This document shows positions 1 through 24,472 of a DNA stretch of 24,472 nucleotides, one piece after another (within the stretch, counting starts at the first letter, position 1; every line of letters begins with the position of its first letter). Both the position numbers and the translations under genes were made by a program. The stretch is from positions 1 to 24,472 of IMG/VR virus record IMGVR_UViG_3300020172_000158. One strand, written 5' to 3'. Under the pieces are notes generated by a model. The model did not search any database. It saw nothing but the letters and a program-made list of their open reading frames with translations, and was not told the DNA's origin. Source of the DNA: a virus.

Positions 1-1465
1 CCATATCAATTCTTTGTTTCTCACCTTCACTGAATGATTCATAACTAAATGCATCACGGTGTCTTGATTTAATTGTTTCTTTGAATGATTCATCTAAATT
101 AAAATTAACAAAGAAATCAAATGTGGCAAGATGTTTGTTTACAACTTTATTAATAATGGGTAGATACTGTTTGATAATTTTAGTTTTAATACCAGTATCT
201 TTGAGTAGACCTGAAGCGGCTTCATAATATGTTTTTTCATCAATCAATTCTTTCTTCTTCTCTATTATTATCTCTAATTGAATATTCAATTCATTTAATT
301 TAGTATTTTCTGTTTCTAAATTATCTTGTTTAGATTTCAATGTTTCAATCTGTGATTTTAGTTTTGCAATATACTTATTTGTTTCTGTAATAGAAGTTGT
401 ATTGGTTGCATTACTAATTTGTAATTTCTGTATTTCTTTTTGTTTTACATTGATTACATTTAGTCGTTCTTGTTCTGCCAATAGTTTTTCTTCTAATACT
501 TTCAATCCAGATTCTATTTCGGAAACCCTGTCTTTATTATCTTTGATTTGTTGTTCTTTAAACCCCAAGGCAATTTCTTGCCTACAGGTTGGACAATTAT
601 CATTCTGTTCAAAGAAACCGATATCAGTCTTATATTTGGATAAGTTGTTCTCAATCTGCGATTCAATTTTAGTAAATTTCTTGAGTCTAGTCTCCACCTC
701 AATTTTGTTTTCCACGTCTGACTGTAATTCATTGATTGCATTGGATGTTTGCTGTATTTTTTCTTGTAATTCAAGTATGTCAGTATTATACAATTTGATT
801 TGATTATCATATTCTTCTATCTTCTCTTCATTAGTTTTTTGGATACTTCTAATATGAGTATTCTGTATTTCAATCTTTGCTTCTACAATTTGTAACTTAG
901 AATTGTTATCTGTAACCTGATCTTTATTACCAGATATTTTATCTTTCAATACAGTATTCATTGTAGAAAATATTTGTATATCTAATAAATCTTCAATGAT
1001 TGACCTACGATCATTTGCAGATAATTGCATGAATGGTACAAACGATGCAGAACCTAAGATAACAATCTGTGTAAATGATTTGTAGTTTAATTTCAAAATA
1101 AACTTTTCTAAGTATTCTTGATAATCTCTACTTGCGGCATCTTGATTTACTAAATCACCATCCTGATATATCTCAAAGATATTAGGTTTGATACCACGAA
1201 CAATTTTATATTTCTTATTACCAATATCAAATTCACATTCAGTAATACAATCTTTTTGATTGATAGAATTAATTAGTTGTGGTTTATTAATACTTCTAAA
1301 TGCTTTACCAAACAAAGAAAAACACAATGCATCAAGCATCGTAGATTTACCTGCGCCATTAGAACCAACAATTAAAGTATTGGATGATTTTTGAAAATCA
1401 ATCTCAGTAAAATAATTGCCAGTGCTAACGAAGTTTTTGTATCTAACTTTTTTGAATACAATCAT
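1..1465 (-). CDS. 46: gp46-like recombination nuclease subunit (SMC/Rad50 type ATPase), 3' end outside window
   Basis: ATPase subunit of the phage Rad50/Mre11-like complex with gp47, which resects DNA ends for recombination-dependent replication. The start is the ATG at 1465-1463, sharing one base with the gp47 stop (TAATG). About 488 codons are visible. Walker A GSNGAGKST lies at residues 34-42. Long Gln/Lys/Glu-rich coiled-coil arms flank a CPTC zinc-hook motif near residues 291-294. The ABC signature FSEGEKQR lies near 474-481, right at the window edge. The Walker B and D-loop, expected shortly after, lie outside. T4 gp46 is about 560 residues, so roughly 70 are missing to the left. The ribosome-binding site is weak (GAAAGAG), suggesting translational coupling to gp47. 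A sigma-70-like promoter inside the end of gp47 may add transcripts. The identity is firm from motif order and gene context. Confidence 0.95.
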   Translation of the reverse strand, partial: MIVFKKVRYKNFVSTGNYFTEIDFQKSSNTLIVGSNGAGKSTMLDALCFSLFGKAFRSINKPQLINSINQKDCITECEFDIGNKKYKIVRGIKPNIFEIYQDGDLVNQDAASRDYQEYLEKFILKLNYKSFTQIVILGSASFVPFMQLSANDRRSIIEDLLDIQIFSTMNTVLKDKISGNKDQVTDNNSKLQIVEAKIEIQNTHIRSIQKTNEEKIEEYDNQIKLYNTDILELQEKIQQTSNAINELQSDVENKIEVETRLKKFTKIESQIENNLSKYKTDIGFFEQNDNCPTCRQEIALGFKEQQIKDNKDRVSEIESGLKVLEEKLLAEQERLNVINVKQKEIQKLQISNATNTTSITETNKYIAKLKSQIETLKSKQDNLETENTKLNELNIQLEIIIEKKKELIDEKTYYEAASGLLKDTGIKTKIIKQYLPIINKVVNKHLATFDFFVNFNLDESFKETIKSRHRDAFSYESFSEGEKQRIDM

Positions 1466-2975: not shown

Positions 2976-3533
2976 TTAGATTTCAGGTAGTTCTTTCACA
3001 TCCAATTCAATAAAGTTTTCAATACCTTTAATCTTTACTTTCTTTTTATTCTTTTTAGTTTCTTCAAAAGTATGAATGAATTCTGATATATTATCATACA
3101 TCTTGAACTGTTGCATATGACCATTCTCATCTTCAAACATTTCACCTTCATCTAATAAACCAAACTGTTCTGTTGCTTTGTATTTTACGTATAGTTGTTT
3201 CTTCTCTTTGGCAATTCTTCGTAGAAATGCAAAGTAAATAATCTGTGTAAAATAGGCAAATGGATTAGATGATTTAGCAGGATCAAAGTTTCTGAAATAC
3301 ATTATACAGTTTTCAATACCATCTGCAATCATTTCATCTCTAAATGAATAGGATACAAAGTTTGGTTTTCTGGATAGATGTTCTGCAATTTTAATAAAAC
3401 ATTCACCAATATAGTTCGGTACTATAGGTTCTGGTTTATCATCTTTCTTAGCATCAATGCACTTCTGGGTATATTCGTTTAGTGCCTTTAAGAAATCGGC
3501 ATTGTTGATATAGTGTGTTTTTTTCTTACTCAT
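2976..3533 (-). CDS. 55: gp55-like late transcription sigma factor
   Basis: The phage-encoded sigma factor that directs host RNA polymerase core to late promoters (TATAAATA), in T4 together with gp33 and the gp45 sliding clamp. At 185 residues it has the length of T4 gp55. Residues about 62-112 look like a sigma region 2 helix bundle, with an acidic, aromatic stretch ending in YFRNFDPAKSSNPFAYFTQI and a basic FLRRIAKEKKQ tail. There is no recognisable region 4, as expected for gp55. GAGGT eight bases before the ATG serves as ribosome-binding site. It sits in the recombination cluster under sigma-70-type promoters, so it should be made before the late genes it activates. The six exact late boxes in this window are its predicted targets. 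Confidence 0.9.
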   Translation of the reverse strand: MSKKKTHYINNADFLKALNEYTQKCIDAKKDDKPEPIVPNYIGECFIKIAEHLSRKPNFVSYSFRDEMIADGIENCIMYFRNFDPAKSSNPFAYFTQIIYFAFLRRIAKEKKQLYVKYKATEQFGLLDEGEMFEDENGHMQQFKMYDNISEFIHTFEETKKNKKKVKIKGIENFIELDVKELPEI

Positions 3534-3554: not shown

Positions 3555-3583
3555 TTGACAGGTTATTCAATCTTTGTTATAAT
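3555..3583 (+). promoter_or_regulatory. Perfect consensus sigma-70 promoter pointing against all genes
   Basis: Plus strand: TTGACA at 3555-3560, a 17-base spacer, TATAAT at 3578-3583. All 12 consensus positions match at ideal spacing. The predicted start is near 3590. It lies in the 64-base gap between gp55 and the 143-residue gene, and reads rightward, antisense to that gene and then to uvsW. No plausible plus-strand gene follows, and I see no clear terminator close by. An antisense or regulatory RNA is the simplest reading. Confidence 0.65.
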
Positions 3584-3597
3584 GGTTTTGTCGTTCT

Positions 3598-4029
3598 TTA
3601 ATGTAATATTCTTTTCTTATTACTTAATACTTCTTTAATGGTTTCAATACTATCTACATACTCAGAGAACTCTTCTTCTGAAACATCCTCTTCATCACCC
3701 TCTTCGTTTAATGATTGTTCAATGTGGTCAGACTCTTCAATGATACATTCATTCAAATCAATCACTGCCTTATTATAATAATTAACAAGTGATTCTTTAG
3801 GTTCAAATACAGTTAATACATCAGTAGAGTATACTGCAGCAATATTATTTTGAATAATCTCTACAGGTAACCAAGGTACCATCATCATAACTGATTTACC
3901 AGTAATCTGTCTTTTAAATAATACTGTCATAGGATTGTTAAGTGTAACAATACCTTCTTCTTTATCTTCTTTCATAGATGCAATGATATCTTCACCTGAT
4001 TGCATCCTTATTATTTTTATGTTATCCAT
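3598..4029 (-). CDS. Unrecognised 143-residue protein with small beta-rich N-terminal domain and acidic tail
   Basis: No firm family. The N-terminal half (MDNIKIIRMQSGEDIIASM, then VTLNNPMTVLF, then MMVPWLP) alternates short hydrophobic strands in a way that resembles the small Sm-like or SH3-like barrels sometimes predicted for short T4-like phage proteins. That resemblance is a guess from pattern only. Residues about 96-130 are strongly acidic (Glu/Asp runs such as EEGDEEDVSEEEF), followed by a basic end. The ATG overlaps the uvsW stop by eight bases (ATGGATAA), implying coupled translation. A sigma-70-like promoter at 4080-4108 lies just upstream. The position between uvsW and gp55 suggests a role in nucleic acid metabolism or transcription control, but nothing in the sequence proves it. 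Confidence 0.8.
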   Translation of the reverse strand: MDNIKIIRMQSGEDIIASMKEDKEEGIVTLNNPMTVLFKRQITGKSVMMMVPWLPVEIIQNNIAAVYSTDVLTVFEPKESLVNYYNKAVIDLNECIIEESDHIEQSLNEEGDEEDVSEEEFSEYVDSIETIKEVLSNKKRILH

Positions 4030-5488
4030 TTTTCATCTCTATGTTATAAAACTTGTAATTGAACTTCTCATCGTCATACATTTTAACACGTCCAACGAAG
4101 TGTGTCAAGGTGTAATTGGTATGTTTACCTATTCTAAAATCATCAGAGATATCATAAAGAACTGCTTCTTCTTTATTATCACCTAATCTAAGTCCACGAC
4201 CAATTGATTGTAAATTACGAATTTTTGATTTAGATGGTGAGGCAAATATTACATTATGCAAATTACGTATATTAATACCAGTTGAGAATGTACCATACGA
4301 AGCAACGATAATGGCATCTTTTTCACGTTCAGTTATATCTCTAATAGATTCTCTAACTTCGGTATCAGTACCACCATACACAAAAAATACTTTACGTTTA
4401 CCTGCTTCTTCTTTTATAATATTATGTAGAACTTTACCATGTTTATCTACAAATTGAAATAGTATTAATGAATTACCTTTCAACGACAAGGCAAGATTTT
4501 TTATAAATGCGTTTCTTGCTGTGTTCAATACTATATATTCAATCTCTTCTTTGTAGTCCCACTTCTTAGATAACTTACAAACTTCTTCTGGATATTTAAG
4601 TATTAAACATTTAATCTTAAATTTAGATAACTGTTTGTTATCCATTAATTCTTTTGTTGTGGTTGCTCTGTATACTGGTCCAAATAACCCTTCTAATACT
4701 AATCTGTGTGTTTGTGTACCATCAAGTGTACCAGTGCAACCTATTCTATAATCTGCAAGTGATAGACCAGTCATTATAGTTGTCAATGACTTTGCTTTGA
4801 ATTGATGTGCTTCATCACCAAGAACAAAATCAAACTGTTCAAAATAATCTGGTGAATTTTTATAGATTGATTGCCATGTAGTGATAGTAAGAAATTTGTT
4901 TATTGATTTATCTTTACCAGAATACTGTCTATGGCAATACTCTTCAGAATTATATCCATATGATTTAAAATCACTATACATCTGTTCAACAAGAGATGTA
5001 GTTGGTACAATTAACAAACCTTTTTTACAATCAGAATATTGTAGATAACTTAATATCAAATATAATATTAAAGATTTACCTGATGCCGTTGGTGATATTA
5101 ATAATAATCTTTTATTGCGTATTGATTGAACAAAAGATTTTAATTGGTAATCTCTAACTTCAAAAGGTAATTTTAATGTAGATATAAATTCTTCTGCTTC
5201 TTTTACAGAAAATATATTTGTATTACTGATTGAAGAATCTATATCAAGAGTATATTCTCTTGTTTTACAAAAATCTTGTATGTATGGAACAAGACCATGA
5301 TATATAGTGTAAGACCTTAAATCTGCAAGTCTTATTTTACCATCCCACAATTTATTTTTATATGCAGGAGTAAATTGATATCCTGGTACATAAAAAGTAA
5401 AGAAGTCTGCCAACTCCTGTGCTATATTTCTTTCACATTCAAATTGAATATATGCTTCATTCTTCTTATGTAATATTAAATCAGGCAC
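4022..5488 (-). CDS. uvsW: UvsW-like DNA helicase
   Basis: Superfamily 2 helicase that unwinds R-loops and branched DNA. In T4 it helps switch replication from origin-dependent to recombination-dependent initiation. Length 488 (T4 UvsW about 503). Motifs in order: Walker A PTASGKS at residues 133-139, DEAH box at 225-228, TGT (motif III) at 252-254, and QSIGRGLR (motif VI) at 427-434. The first 100 residues form the small N-terminal substrate-binding domain. The start is a GTG at 5488-5486, overlapping the uvsY stop by eight bases. No ATG fits, so translation is probably coupled to uvsY. The stop overlaps the next gene in the same way. The plus-strand consensus promoter at 3555 could produce RNA antisense to its 3' half. 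Confidence 0.95.
   Translation of the reverse strand: MPDLILHKKNEAYIQFECERNIAQELADFFTFYVPGYQFTPAYKNKLWDGKIRLADLRSYTIYHGLVPYIQDFCKTREYTLDIDSSISNTNIFSVKEAEEFISTLKLPFEVRDYQLKSFVQSIRNKRLLLISPTASGKSLILYLILSYLQYSDCKKGLLIVPTTSLVEQMYSDFKSYGYNSEEYCHRQYSGKDKSINKFLTITTWQSIYKNSPDYFEQFDFVLGDEAHQFKAKSLTTIMTGLSLADYRIGCTGTLDGTQTHRLVLEGLFGPVYRATTTKELMDNKQLSKFKIKCLILKYPEEVCKLSKKWDYKEEIEYIVLNTARNAFIKNLALSLKGNSLILFQFVDKHGKVLHNIIKEEAGKRKVFFVYGGTDTEVRESIRDITEREKDAIIVASYGTFSTGINIRNLHNVIFASPSKSKIRNLQSIGRGLRLGDNKEEAVLYDISDDFRIGKHTNYTLTHFVGRVKMYDDEKFNYKFYNIEMKNG
4080..4108 (-). promoter_or_regulatory. Sigma-70-type promoter in the 3' end of uvsW
   Basis: Minus strand: TTGACA (4108-4103), 17 bases, TAAAAT (4085-4080), with TG one base before the -10 box (extended -10). 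The predicted start is near 4073, about 44 bases ahead of the 143-residue gene. It would drive that gene, gp55 and the genes beyond. Together with the similar signals at 1523-1551 and 5937-5965, it forms a set of same-spaced promoters over the recombination cluster. Confidence 0.5.
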
Positions 5489-5915
5489 CTTGAATAAATC
5501 TTTCCCATGCTATAAAGTCTCTCAGTTGAAATGTTCTACTATTTAGTTCTTTCATAATACTCTGACACACTTCAACAATTTCATCATGCATAACTTTAAT
5601 TGCAATATATTTGTTTAGGTCATCATCACTTTCAAGATATGATGCCACTTCAGATTTAAGAACAAAAGGAAAAGGTTCCCAACCATACTTCTTAAGTTGG
5701 TCATCATCAAGTTTACCGGTATAATATTCCCACTTTACTCTACGCATTTTATTAAACTTAAACTCTGCTTCTTTAGACAACAACCTATGTCTTGAAAGCA
5801 TATTTAAGTATTTGCTATGTAATTGTGGTATATTAATTAATTCTCTGCCAGGTTCTGTTCTATCAATCACAGAATCTTTGCGCCACATTTCTAATAATTC
5901 ATCAAGTTTATTCAT
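5481..5915 (-). CDS. uvsY: UvsY-like recombination mediator
   Basis: Recombination mediator that loads the UvsX recombinase onto single-stranded DNA covered by gp32. Length 144 (T4 UvsY 137). I recognise the T4 pattern: an N-terminal helix with the LxxxWxKDxxID motif, a central VKWEYYTGKLDDD segment matching the T4 RLDYYSGRGDGD region, and a C-terminal RDFIAWERFIQG matching the T4 QDMRAFEAGK end. It is mostly helical, with no enzyme motif, as expected. The ATG at 5915 has AAGGAG seven bases upstream. It precedes uvsW with an eight-base overlap, and the two are neighbours in T4 as well. A strong sigma-70-type promoter at 5937-5965 should start the cluster here. No uvsX is in the window. Confidence 0.85.
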   Translation of the reverse strand: MNKLDELLEMWRKDSVIDRTEPGRELINIPQLHSKYLNMLSRHRLLSKEAEFKFNKMRRVKWEYYTGKLDDDQLKKYGWEPFPFVLKSEVASYLESDDDLNKYIAIKVMHDEIVEVCQSIMKELNSRTFQLRDFIAWERFIQGA

Positions 5916-15469: not shown

Positions 15470-17098
15470 TTAGAATGTTGACGGCATATAACCACGATTC
15501 TTCGCTACAGTCCATATGTCCTCCCCATCAAATATCTTTTCGTCCTCTTTTCCATCATCAAAAATACCTATTGGCATATATTCATCTTCTAAATGCATCT
15601 TACTTTCTTCCATTAATCTACGTCTGATATCAGAATTTGTAGTCTCTCTAAAGAAAGTTTGTGATGTTAACCAAGAAAATAGAACTAATGCCATCACCAA
15701 ATCGTCATGATTACCTTCTTCTGCCTCATATGAATCTCTTACCTTGACAAATGTGTTTAACTCAGATATAATATCAAAATCTTCAATAATTAGTTTCTTT
15801 GTTTCTACCAAAGTCTTTAAGTTTGCACACCCAATCTTCTTAACAGGTGTTGTGGTCTTTATACCAAATGATACCGCTTTCTTGTATCCAGCAGATAAAT
15901 GCTGACCTTTTGTTACATGTTTCTGTATTTTGAATATATTCTCGTATTCTAATTCATAATGTAAAATGTCAACAACTTGTTGACCTACATTATTAGTCTC
16001 TGCCAACAGAAATGCACCATTATATCTTTGTCCTATATTATATATGATAGTAGGAAAGAGTAAAGGTGCAATGTTATTATCTCTATATTTTGCCACTAGT
16101 TTATATGGTATATCTGTTACATCAACAACTGCAACTGTAGAATAGTCTTGACCTACACCCTCTGCACAGTCTACAGTCATCACATAGGTTCTATCTGGTC
16201 TTGGCATTTCATGTATATCTAATCCCTCAATAGAACTTAATGGATCTCTAAATGCTAATTGTCTTAATATAATACCAGGTATTAATGTTGCAGAAGAACC
16301 AATGAATTCAGTTTCAAACTCTTGTTGAAATTGTTCTTCACTAGTATTTCTAATTGTTTCTTCTTTCCACTTTTGATCCCTGCCTGGTACCATTGACCAG
16401 TGAACTTCAAGTGGTATATACGTTGATCGTTTCTCTGTAGAATCTACCCACATCTTATAGAAATGATTTAGACCATAAGGTGTAGATACAATAATTACTT
16501 TTGTTGTTTTACCTGAAGAGATAACGGGATATGTAGATGTAAAGAAATCATTTGCCATATTCTGTGGAACGAAAGCAAACTCATCAAGAAAGATTAAGTT
16601 GTATGTTCCTCCACGAACACCAGAATTTGATGTTGCAAATGCGGCAATCTTAGAACCGTTCTCTAATTCTAAACTTCTTTTATTCCAAACTACAATACCT
16701 TGTTGTAACCAAATAGGTAAATATTCGTATGCATATTGTATCCTACTTAAAATATCTTGTGCAAGATTACCTTTATTGGCGAGAATTGCAACTGAAAAGT
16801 TTTCTTTGAACAATACACACCATAACATATAACCTGCAGATGTTGTAGTTTTACCTACTTGCCGTGGCATCTTACAAATACTAAAACGATTCTTATGAAA
16901 ATTTCTAACCATATCTTCTTGAAATGGCCACATCTCAAAAGGAATAAGACCACGATCCACGTTGACGATTTTTACATACGTCTTAATGAAGTAAACAGGA
17001 TCCTCTATACACTTTGCAATTTCTATTGCTTGTTCTTCAGTGTATGATAACTCAACCCCTGTTGGTTTTAGTTTTGGATTACCTAGATAACCTTGCAT
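15470..17098 (-). CDS. 17: gp17-like terminase large subunit (packaging ATPase and nuclease)
   Basis: Motor that cuts concatemeric DNA and pumps it through the portal. Length 542 (T4 610). ATPase: Walker A PRQVGKT at 78-84 and Walker B LIFLDE at 168-173, followed by the STPYG coupling motif near 205-209. RNase H-like nuclease: Asp310 (MTVDCAEG), Glu367 (LLAETNN) and Asp465 or Asp466 (GNHDDLVMA), the expected acidic triad. The ATG shares one base with the dps stop (TAATG), so translation is probably coupled. Transcribed with gp13-dps from the late promoter at 20834. A consensus sigma-70 promoter on the opposite strand lies inside it at 15744-15772. Confidence 0.97.
   Translation of the reverse strand: MQGYLGNPKLKPTGVELSYTEEQAIEIAKCIEDPVYFIKTYVKIVNVDRGLIPFEMWPFQEDMVRNFHKNRFSICKMPRQVGKTTTSAGYMLWCVLFKENFSVAILANKGNLAQDILSRIQYAYEYLPIWLQQGIVVWNKRSLELENGSKIAAFATSNSGVRGGTYNLIFLDEFAFVPQNMANDFFTSTYPVISSGKTTKVIIVSTPYGLNHFYKMWVDSTEKRSTYIPLEVHWSMVPGRDQKWKEETIRNTSEEQFQQEFETEFIGSSATLIPGIILRQLAFRDPLSSIEGLDIHEMPRPDRTYVMTVDCAEGVGQDYSTVAVVDVTDIPYKLVAKYRDNNIAPLLFPTIIYNIGQRYNGAFLLAETNNVGQQVVDILHYELEYENIFKIQKHVTKGQHLSAGYKKAVSFGIKTTTPVKKIGCANLKTLVETKKLIIEDFDIISELNTFVKVRDSYEAEEGNHDDLVMALVLFSWLTSQTFFRETTNSDIRRRLMEESKMHLEDEYMPIGIFDDGKEDEKIFDGEDIWTVAKNRGYMPSTF
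15744..15772 (+). promoter_or_regulatory. Perfect consensus sigma-70 promoter antisense within gp17
   Basis: Plus strand TTGACA at 15744-15749, 17 bases, TATAAT at 15767-15772, 12 of 12 consensus positions. The predicted start is near 15779, running rightward antisense to the rest of gp17. No plus-strand gene follows. It lies over codons for the stretch DIISELNTFVK of the nuclease domain, so protein constraint and chance must be weighed. A second identical signal at 3555 makes chance less likely. Confidence 0.55.
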
Positions 17099-17532
17099 TA
17101 CTTAATAATACTTCTCAACATCCATGCATGTTTTTGATGTTTACCTAATAAGTCTTGTAAGAAATTAGACACTGCTGGTTCATTTGCTTGATCGGCTGCA
17201 ACAATACCTGCACGAAGATGATAAATGTATCTATCATTATCATTTTTTATTTCTGCCATCATTAATAAAGGCATTGGTATTGTTGTTGCATCTTGTATAT
17301 CTGATAACTCTTGAAATCTTGATAATGAACCTGGTGCATATGAATCTAATCTTCTTAGATGTTCTGCAATATCGTCTGTCTGTATCCAAATAGCATTATA
17401 GAGTTCATCAAGAAAAGAATGATATTGAGGAAAATCTTTACCTTCAATGTTCCAATGATAGTTGTGTGTCTTTAAGTAAAGGCAAAAGTTAGTTGCTAAG
17501 ATTACTTTTAGTTGTTCAATTAGTTGATCCAT
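17098..17532 (-). CDS. dps: Dps-like ferritin (DNA protection during starvation family)
   Basis: A 144-residue four-helix ferritin-like protein. Dps proteins form 12-subunit shells that oxidise Fe(II) with hydrogen peroxide and protect DNA. The five ferroxidase ligands of E. coli Dps (H51, H63, D67, D78, E82) all have counterparts with identical spacing: His26, His38, Asp42, Asp53 and Glu57, within THNYHWNIEGKDF and DDIAEHLRRLD. The enzyme centre therefore looks intact. It lacks the lysine-rich N-terminal DNA-binding tail of E. coli Dps, so any DNA contact would be indirect. It is inserted exactly between the terminase subunits, with TAATG overlaps on both sides. Its ribosome-binding site AGGAG lies within the last codons of gp16. 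A late gene by context; not part of the T4 core. Confidence 0.92.
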   Translation of the reverse strand: MDQLIEQLKVILATNFCLYLKTHNYHWNIEGKDFPQYHSFLDELYNAIWIQTDDIAEHLRRLDSYAPGSLSRFQELSDIQDATTIPMPLLMMAEIKNDNDRYIYHLRAGIVAADQANEPAVSNFLQDLLGKHQKHAWMLRSIIK

Positions 17533-23128: not shown

Positions 23129-24472
23129 TTATACTTGTATAAATGATTGAGAAATGTACCACACTGTATCTGAATTAAATTTAGTGCAAACATATATTGT
23201 TACTTTACTTGCTGCGGTAGCAACAGCTGGTAATGTAGCACTGTTATTGTAAGCAAGAGTTTCACCACTGGGTGCAGCAAATGCTACTGTTCTTCCACCT
23301 GTTCCATCTTGCTTACATACAACAACAAATGTTCTTACTGCAGTACCACCAGGTTGACTTGATGGTAATGTAATAGTTACATTTCCAGTTAATGTAATTC
23401 TTTGAACATTATCTGTTGATGTTAATGTAAATGTAGTACCAGAGTTTGTATATGCTGCAGCACCTTCTCTAAAGTATGATATTGTATTACCACCAAAAGA
23501 AACATCACCAGAGAATGTTCCACCACCAAATGGTGTTCCAGTTAAACCTTGTGTACCTTGTGTACCAGTAGTACCTTGACTACCCGTAGTACCTTGAGTG
23601 CCTTGTGGTCCTTGAATACCTTGTATACCTTGAGCACCAGTAGTACCTTGACTACCTGTGGCGCCTTGACTACCAGTAGCACCTTGAGCACCAGTAGCAC
23701 CTTGACTACCTGTGGCGCCTTGAGAACCGGTAGCACCTTGTGATCCAGTAGCACCTTGAGAACCTGTTGTTCCTTGAACACCTTGCGTACCTTGTGTACC
23801 AGTAGTACCTTGTGATCCAGTAGCACCTTGAGCACCAGTAGCACCTTGACTACCTGTAGTTCCTTGAACACCTTGTGTACCTTGAACACCTCTAACACCA
23901 GTAATTGTTATTGTCCAAGATGATGCTAATGTTGTTCCAAGATTATAATCAGCAGCAATAGCAAATGTTGTTCCTGTAGTAATTGTTACAATACCTTCAA
24001 ACAAATTATCGGCTGTATTGATAGCACGAACACGATCACCTGTAGCAAAAGCACCTTGAATATTAGTAGTTAATGTAATTGTTCCAGAACTAGCGGGTGT
24101 TGCAGAAGTTGTTGATGTTACACCAGCATATCCAGTACCTTGCAAACCTTGTATACCTTGTGTACCCTGCACACCTTGTATACCTTGAATACCCTGAGTA
24201 CCTTGAGTACCCTGTGTACCTTGAACACCTTGGATACCTTGTGTACCTTGAGTACCTTGAGAACCAGTAGCACCTTGACTACCAGTTATACCTTGAACAC
24301 CTTGAGTACCTTGACTACCTGTAGTTCCCTGAGAACCTGTGGCACCTTGACTACCTGTAGCACCTTGTGATCCAGTAGTTCCTTGAACACCTTGAGTACC
24401 TTGTGATCCAGTAATTCCTTGAACACCTTGAGTACCAGTAGCACCTTGACTGCCTGTTGTTCCTTGAACACC
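23129..24472 (-). CDS. Collagen-like fibre protein, N terminus outside window
   Basis: 447 residues visible; the reading frame is open to the right edge, so the N terminus is missing. Residues 1-113 and about 195-313 are Gly-X-Y repeats, mostly [12 protein letters not shown] and GTTGSQ, with a single Pro in the repeats, typical of phage collagen-like fibres. Between them lies a small beta domain (about 114-194: [20 protein letters not shown] to [13 protein letters not shown]). The C terminus (314-447) is Ser/Thr/Val-rich beta sequence ending [10 protein letters not shown], a likely trimeric tip. A GTG at 24172 is an internal Val within the repeats, not a start. Role: probably host-recognition or appendage fibre. 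It precedes glycan-type genes, which may act on it or on the host surface. Confidence 0.88.
23534..23890 (-). repeat. Collagen-type coding repeat, second block
   Basis: Degenerate 9-base units coding Gly-X-Y, such as the plus-strand words ACCTTG alternating with ACCAGTAGC or ACCTGTAGT. The same words recur tens of times, with third-base variation. The near-identical units make this block prone to slippage and to expansion or contraction, and give rise to spurious open frames in other registers. Confidence 0.85.
24134..24472 (-). repeat. Collagen-type coding repeat, first block, continuing past the window edge
   Basis: Same Gly-X-Y coding units as the block at 23534-23890, here with more GTQ, GIQ and GVQ triplets near its 3' part (24134-24250). 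The block is cut by the right edge, so its full length is unknown. Confidence 0.85.

Follow-up and report, generated by a model that had tools for sequence, protein, structure and literature searches.

A predicted sigma-70 promoter directed against the surrounding genes is conserved beside gp55 in T4-like phages

The promoter and its neighbouring genes

The stretch of viral DNA that we analysed, referred to here as the window, comprises 24,472 nucleotides (positions 1 to 24,472 of IMG/VR record IMGVR_UViG_3300020172_000158), and all of its identifiable genes lie on the minus strand. They include gp55 (2976..3533; phrog_234, E 7.7e-60), which encodes the late sigma factor; a gene for a protein of 143 amino acids (3598..4029; T4-GC 139, phrog_471); the helicase gene uvsW (4022..5488), with the domain PF21241 UvsW_N and helicase domains; and uvsY (5481..5915; phrog_231, E 1.4e-36). 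The gene gp55 starts at 3533 and the 143-amino acid gene stops at 3598; in the 64-nt gap that separates them, the plus strand carries TTGACA-17-TATAAT at 3555-3583, and the perfect sigma-70 promoter that a sequence-only reading of the window had placed here was thus reproduced, with a match of 12/12 and a spacer of 17 nt. The -35 hexamer (3555..3560) and the -10 hexamer (3578..3583) each match the consensus at 6/6 positions, and the spacer (3561..3577) ends in TGT (T3575, G3576, and T3577) directly ahead of TATAAT, an extended -10 element (TGn) that the earlier reading did not include. The predicted transcription start, G3590, lies in another TGT (3589..3591). The promoter opposes the genes of the window: gp55 diverges from it, and its path would lead first over the 3' end of the 143-amino acid gene, then over uvsW and, further on, uvsY. 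The DNA downstream of the promoter in the window has an AT content of 0.761 and, as had been stated before, contains no convincing plus-strand gene.

The match had also been described as rare by chance, and this was borne out by dinucleotide shuffles of the window (spacers of 15-19 nt), in which 0.10 perfect matches were expected compared with 2 found. The second one, overlooked by the earlier reading, is a TTGACA-17-TATAAT at 15744-15772 (+), antisense within the large terminase gene. At the equivalent place in diverged relatives only 4-9/12 positions match, indicating that the terminase site is a chance or coding match, and it can be used as a negative control.

By profile comparison, the product of the 143-amino acid gene is an Sm-like protein (Hfq/Lsm fold), which the sequence-only reading had not recognised. 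Pfam PF16243 (Sm_like) matched 41/69 relatives of the protein (best E 8.1e-44), the protein of the window itself passes the cut-off of Pfam DUF6561, and the family profile matched the Sm-like protein of PDB 3by7 with an E of 8e-16. This homology is limited to the neighbouring gene and does not extend to the promoter element, and we know of no RNA partner for the 3by7 protein. The name under which the gene appears in cyanophage databases, 'methylamine utilization protein', is misleading.

Elsewhere in the window, and all on the minus strand, we noted a cytidylyltransferase-like gene (PF01467; 2513-2965) inserted between gp55 and gp47, a Ferritin-like/Dps-like protein (Pfam Ferritin, E 2.8e-22; 17098-17532) encoded directly upstream of the terminase gene, and a long collagen-like protein with GxxGxx repeats (23129-24472), probably part of a tail fibre, whose gene runs beyond the end of the window.

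Conservation across T4-like phages

We compared 240 loci with relatives of gp55 from viral contigs, together with a set of annotated phages; in 215 loci a member of the 143-amino acid family stands directly before gp55. An antisense promoter matching at least 11/12 positions was present in the gap of 188 of these 215 paired loci, compared with 1.3 expected from dinucleotide shuffles, and in 105/123 loci of the non-redundant set, compared with 0.6 expected. At the neighbouring junctions (before the 143-amino acid gene, before uvsW, and after gp55), the number of antisense promoters at this level was 0. The element was found in 14/14 of the cultured or complete-genome relatives checked that keep the gene order. 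It matches at 12/12 positions in HTVC008M, Mosig, and Sinorhizobium phage phiN3, the last of which lies outside the Kyanoviridae, at 11/12 in S-SM2, S-CAM7, ACG-2014f, AG-345-L05, Syn9, P-SSM2, Syn1, S-RIM2, S-SM1, ACG-2014b, and P-RSM1, and at 10/12 in P-SSM4. The hosts of the carriers are Synechococcus, Prochlorococcus, SAR11, the soil rhizobium Sinorhizobium, and unidentified freshwater hosts. Near gp55 of T4, a Vibrio T4-like phage, a Pseudoalteromonas phage, and a Desulfovibrio phage, the element was not found. In loci where at least one extra gene separates the 143-amino acid gene from gp55, 12/23 carry the element at 10/12 or better, and the retained element stands on either side of the insertion, varying by locus. 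In a separate observation, one 162-kb contig (G003) contains two different gp55 genes, located near 3 kb and near 160 kb. The promoter region of one resembles that of the window, and the other is only 74% identical; this contig is possibly a chimeric assembly.

It could be argued that the perfect promoter is a chance match in AT-rich DNA, since the window holds another one in the terminase gene. We rejected this explanation, to which we assign a negligible probability, because the conservation is specific to the gp55 gap. Where distant relatives share this gene order, the two boxes have been retained free of coding constraint, as the earlier proposal of a real promoter opposing the genes had called for; the proposal is thereby strongly supported, and we regard the promoter reading as very likely.

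To see what is conserved, we aligned on their hexamers the 74 loci that have a 17-nt spacer and computed an information profile. Information content is high in the -35 and -10 hexamers and low in the spacer. Past the -10 hexamer it climbs once more, starting at the third base and lasting until about +15, beyond which it is at background level, so that the conserved stretch is the polymerase footprint only (-36 to about +15). Because the hexamers served to find the sites, their conservation was judged by the shuffle controls; the downstream part played no role in finding the sites and thus provides independent evidence of conservation. Among relatives, the -35 hexamer is near invariant, the spacer varies between 16 and 18 nt with an unconserved sequence, and the -10 hexamer is invariant at positions 1, 2, and 6 and varies at positions 3-5, which are also the positions at which real sigma-70 sites vary. 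A TGT stands 5-6 nt after the -10 hexamer in 114/117 non-redundant loci (8 expected). Sigma-70 transcripts begin 6-8 nt after the -10 hexamer, and with the TGT at this distance a G falls where transcription would normally start, which is G3590 in the window and, in Syn9, a position near 123,698 on the minus strand. By sequence comparison, then, selection is shown to act on the -35 and -10 hexamers, on their spacing, and on the start-site TGT, across T4-like phages whose hosts are very different. Further, retention in the same place in such distantly related T4-like phages indicates that the antisense promoter is almost certainly a working control element, one overlooked so far.

What follows the footprint is different. 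In the 74 anchored loci we found no conserved RNA body past about +15; antisense terminators within 300 nt occur in 8/117 loci compared with 4 expected and are not considered enriched; and no Rfam family matches the antisense RNA. A small antisense open reading frame (at least 30 amino acids, beginning with ATG behind a Shine-Dalgarno-like site and no more than 100 nt from the start) qualified in 1/117 loci, which also agrees with the earlier view that no plus-strand gene lies downstream. A conserved antisense small open reading frame and a conserved terminator or RNA body were accordingly both dropped as candidates.

The start-site palindrome and its copies

Many relatives have a palindrome centred on the start-site TGT, within the stretch that follows the -10 hexamer and reaches about +16 (3584..3605 in the window). 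At least four pairs were counted in 41/117 loci compared with 5.9 in shuffles; some control windows at shifted positions also have a somewhat raised palindrome score (8-17 of 56-117). The sequence varies from phage to phage, as in AACGG-TGT-CCGTT, GGTCT-ATGT-AGACC, CAGGA-ATG-TCCTG, and AACCT-TTGTAG-AGGTT. The TGT is present in the window and in its nearest relative, but neither shows a clear palindrome, the arms in the window being poor, and the palindrome is absent or degenerate in the close clade of the window. The start-site TGT, the palindrome, and the recurrence of this promoter type elsewhere in the genomes of relatives had all escaped the sequence-only reading.

The palindrome word of the gp55 gap recurs at other promoters in 7/11 genomes of relatives, at one to three other promoters per genome; it was not found at other promoters in HTVC008M, Mosig, AG-345-L05, and the partial close relative G001. 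S-CAM7 has four copies, S-RIM2 and ACG-2014b three each, Syn9, S-SM2, and phiN3 two each, and P-SSM4 two copies with a less exact match. The recurring words stand at strong promoters with unrelated spacers, and words taken from other genomes mostly gave no match unless the phages were related. The two copies of phiN3 share the spacer as well and may be a recent duplication. Copies in the sense direction lie ~20-40 nt before early genes; those of S-RIM2, for example, precede a CpeT-like gene and a gene for a small phrog_718 protein. In S-CAM7, one copy falls in a 1-kb region where no gene is annotated, and all four share the first ~38 nt of the predicted RNA, part of which is also present in Mosig. 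Two of the S-CAM7 sites (at 208299 and 65715) are candidates for short non-coding RNAs whose first ~38 nt equal those of the gp55 antisense RNA, and one of the two ends at an intrinsic terminator ~65 nt after its start. We also note that the ordinary early promoters in the early region of G001 (28-90 kb) share an extended consensus, TTGACATTYGGT..TATAATGTAGTCTGAATTGATTGAT, which spans the start-site region and differs from the gp55 antisense promoter.

The arms of the palindrome covary around a constant TGT loop, and mismatches of the G-T type outnumber those of the A-C type by 26:2 (16:3.7 in shuffles), which suggested an RNA hairpin at the start site. A DNA operator fits better, because transcription is predicted to start downstream of the 5' arm and because, within a genome, the arms return at other promoters whose spacers are unrelated. 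We infer that the palindrome is an operator for a phage regulator that would coevolve with it, given that the word is fixed within a genome, changes between genomes, and reaches upstream of the transcript. As the window and its nearest relative lack a clear palindrome, this proposal concerns the family and not the sequence of the window.

Possible roles of the antisense transcription

The closest known counterparts of the element are the early sigma-70 promoters of T4-like cyanophages, which have the form TTGACA-16..18-TATAAT and serve the host polymerase; cyanophages are without the T4 proteins that modify this polymerase (PMC2984593). The present element differs from them in that it opposes the genes, has an invariant TGT at its start, and, in many relatives, carries a genome-specific start-site palindrome common to only one to three other promoters. 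A precedent for antisense transcription among T4-like cyanophages is the CfrI RNA of S-PM2 (PMC2984593, PMC5931967). CfrI is located at psbA and a homing endonuclease gene, whereas the present element is found at gp55, the Sm-like gene, and uvsW and persists in phages of different hosts. The passages retrieved from three transcriptome papers (PMC5082946, PMC5931967, PMC10976474) do not report an antisense site at gp55, and no description of the element was found in the literature searched; the Syn9 transcriptome paper (Doron et al.) lies outside that search.

The reading that we favour, at about even probability, is that of a functional, regulated sigma-70-type promoter that drives antisense transcription across the Sm-like gene and uvsW, with interference in cis as its likeliest effect. 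The unmodified host RNA polymerase would use the promoter early in infection, a timing that can fairly be drawn from the unmodified sigma-70 consensus, and would transcribe the plus strand from G3590, opposing the Sm-like gene and, beyond it, uvsW and uvsY; that an antisense RNA would cover the 143-amino acid gene and uvsW is predicted from the geometry. By collision or by pairing of RNA with mRNA, this transcription may hold down or mark the uvsY-uvsW-Sm-like transcripts on the late side during expression of gp55 and the gp46/47 genes, which lie on its other side; this step of interference in cis, too, is suggested by the geometry. The earlier reading had suggested a delay of UvsW or a tuning of the gp55 mRNA, effects that such transcription might have. 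The promoter would be switched off as gp55 transcription takes over from sigma-70 transcription; where relatives have the palindrome, a putative phage regulator, binding across the start site, would also shut it off and would control the one to three other promoters in the genome as well. Selection would then presumably act on initiation and transcription in cis. That only the polymerase footprint is kept favours models in which initiation or the passage of polymerase matters and not the sequence of the RNA. Four observations count against the favoured reading, namely the absent or degenerate palindrome in the close clade of the window, the somewhat raised palindrome score in some of the shifted controls, the ~38 nt shared by the S-CAM7 copies, which hint at a role of the RNA in that phage, and the absence of the element near gp55 in T4 and the three other phages named above.

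The main rival, in our judgement an unlikely one, is a replication origin of the type of T4 oriF (ori(uvsY)) and oriG (ori(34)), at which the antisense RNA would form an R-loop that primes leading-strand synthesis into the late genes and is later removed by UvsW. The T4 origins require a promoter followed by an AT-rich element, about 100 bp in all, form R-loops that need no specific RNA sequence, and have these R-loops unwound by UvsW (PMC3016281). At the gp55 gap there is likewise a promoter within about 100 bp and uvsY and uvsW adjoin, and the conservation of the promoter footprint alone, without the RNA body, is what indifference to RNA sequence would lead one to expect. The T4 origins, however, use MotA-dependent middle promoters and an AT-rich unwinding element that is not evident here: the AT content downstream is barely raised in relatives (0.698 compared with 0.684 further on; 0.761 in the window), which is a weak test. 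There is also no GC-skew switch at the site in S-SM2, P-SSM4, and G001, again a weak test because all genes run one way, and the other promoters of this type within a genome stand before ordinary early genes. Less probable than an origin, and improbable in our view, is a small RNA acting in trans or as antisense together with the adjoining Sm-like protein, as bacterial small RNAs do with Hfq. The Sm-like fold of the neighbouring gene product raises the idea of an RNA partner, and the S-CAM7 copy with an intrinsic terminator after ~65 nt and the RNA start shared by the four copies agree with it, but the sequence is unconserved past about +15, terminators are not considered enriched, and Rfam has no match.

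Ranked just after the small RNA, with a comparably low probability, is a roadblock or insulator, in which polymerase held at an over-strong consensus promoter would block late transcripts from entering gp55. The near-perfect consensus, the confinement of conservation to the polymerase footprint, and the site at the border of the late operon and gp55 would all suit it, but a strong promoter for gp55 is also present in the gap of most marine relatives, and the palindrome over the start site points to regulation more than to permanent occupancy. That gp55 promoter raises the further question of whether the antisense promoter is a by-product of bidirectional initiation with no role of its own, given that a sense promoter occurs in the same gap in 74/123 loci and that marine phages have overlapping -35 boxes. 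We think this very improbable: the antisense promoter is commoner and nearer to consensus than the sense one, and in the set of loci like the window, 20/30 resemble the window in that the antisense promoter reaches at least 11/12 and no sense promoter does so.

Returning to regulated antisense transcription, we tentatively offer a wider reading, as a possibility that we hold with less assurance than the reading in cis: in T4-like phages across several host phyla, the antisense promoter between the late genes and gp55 may be a shared control point with a start-site palindrome read by a coevolving phage-encoded regulator, and transcription from it, in cis or as an R-loop origin, would time the shift from early to late infection. 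The initial observation is thus confirmed and is stronger than a reading of one sequence could tell. Several of the carriers (Syn9, P-SSM2, HTVC008M, and phiN3) are cultured, and the function of the element is therefore directly testable. The element lies at the boundary between the late genes and the gene for the late sigma factor, adjoining uvsW and the gene for an Sm-like protein. The range of hosts whose phages carry it is a rare breadth for a non-coding feature, and the element is one of few such features that are apparently so widely shared among T4-like phages outside the T4 group proper.
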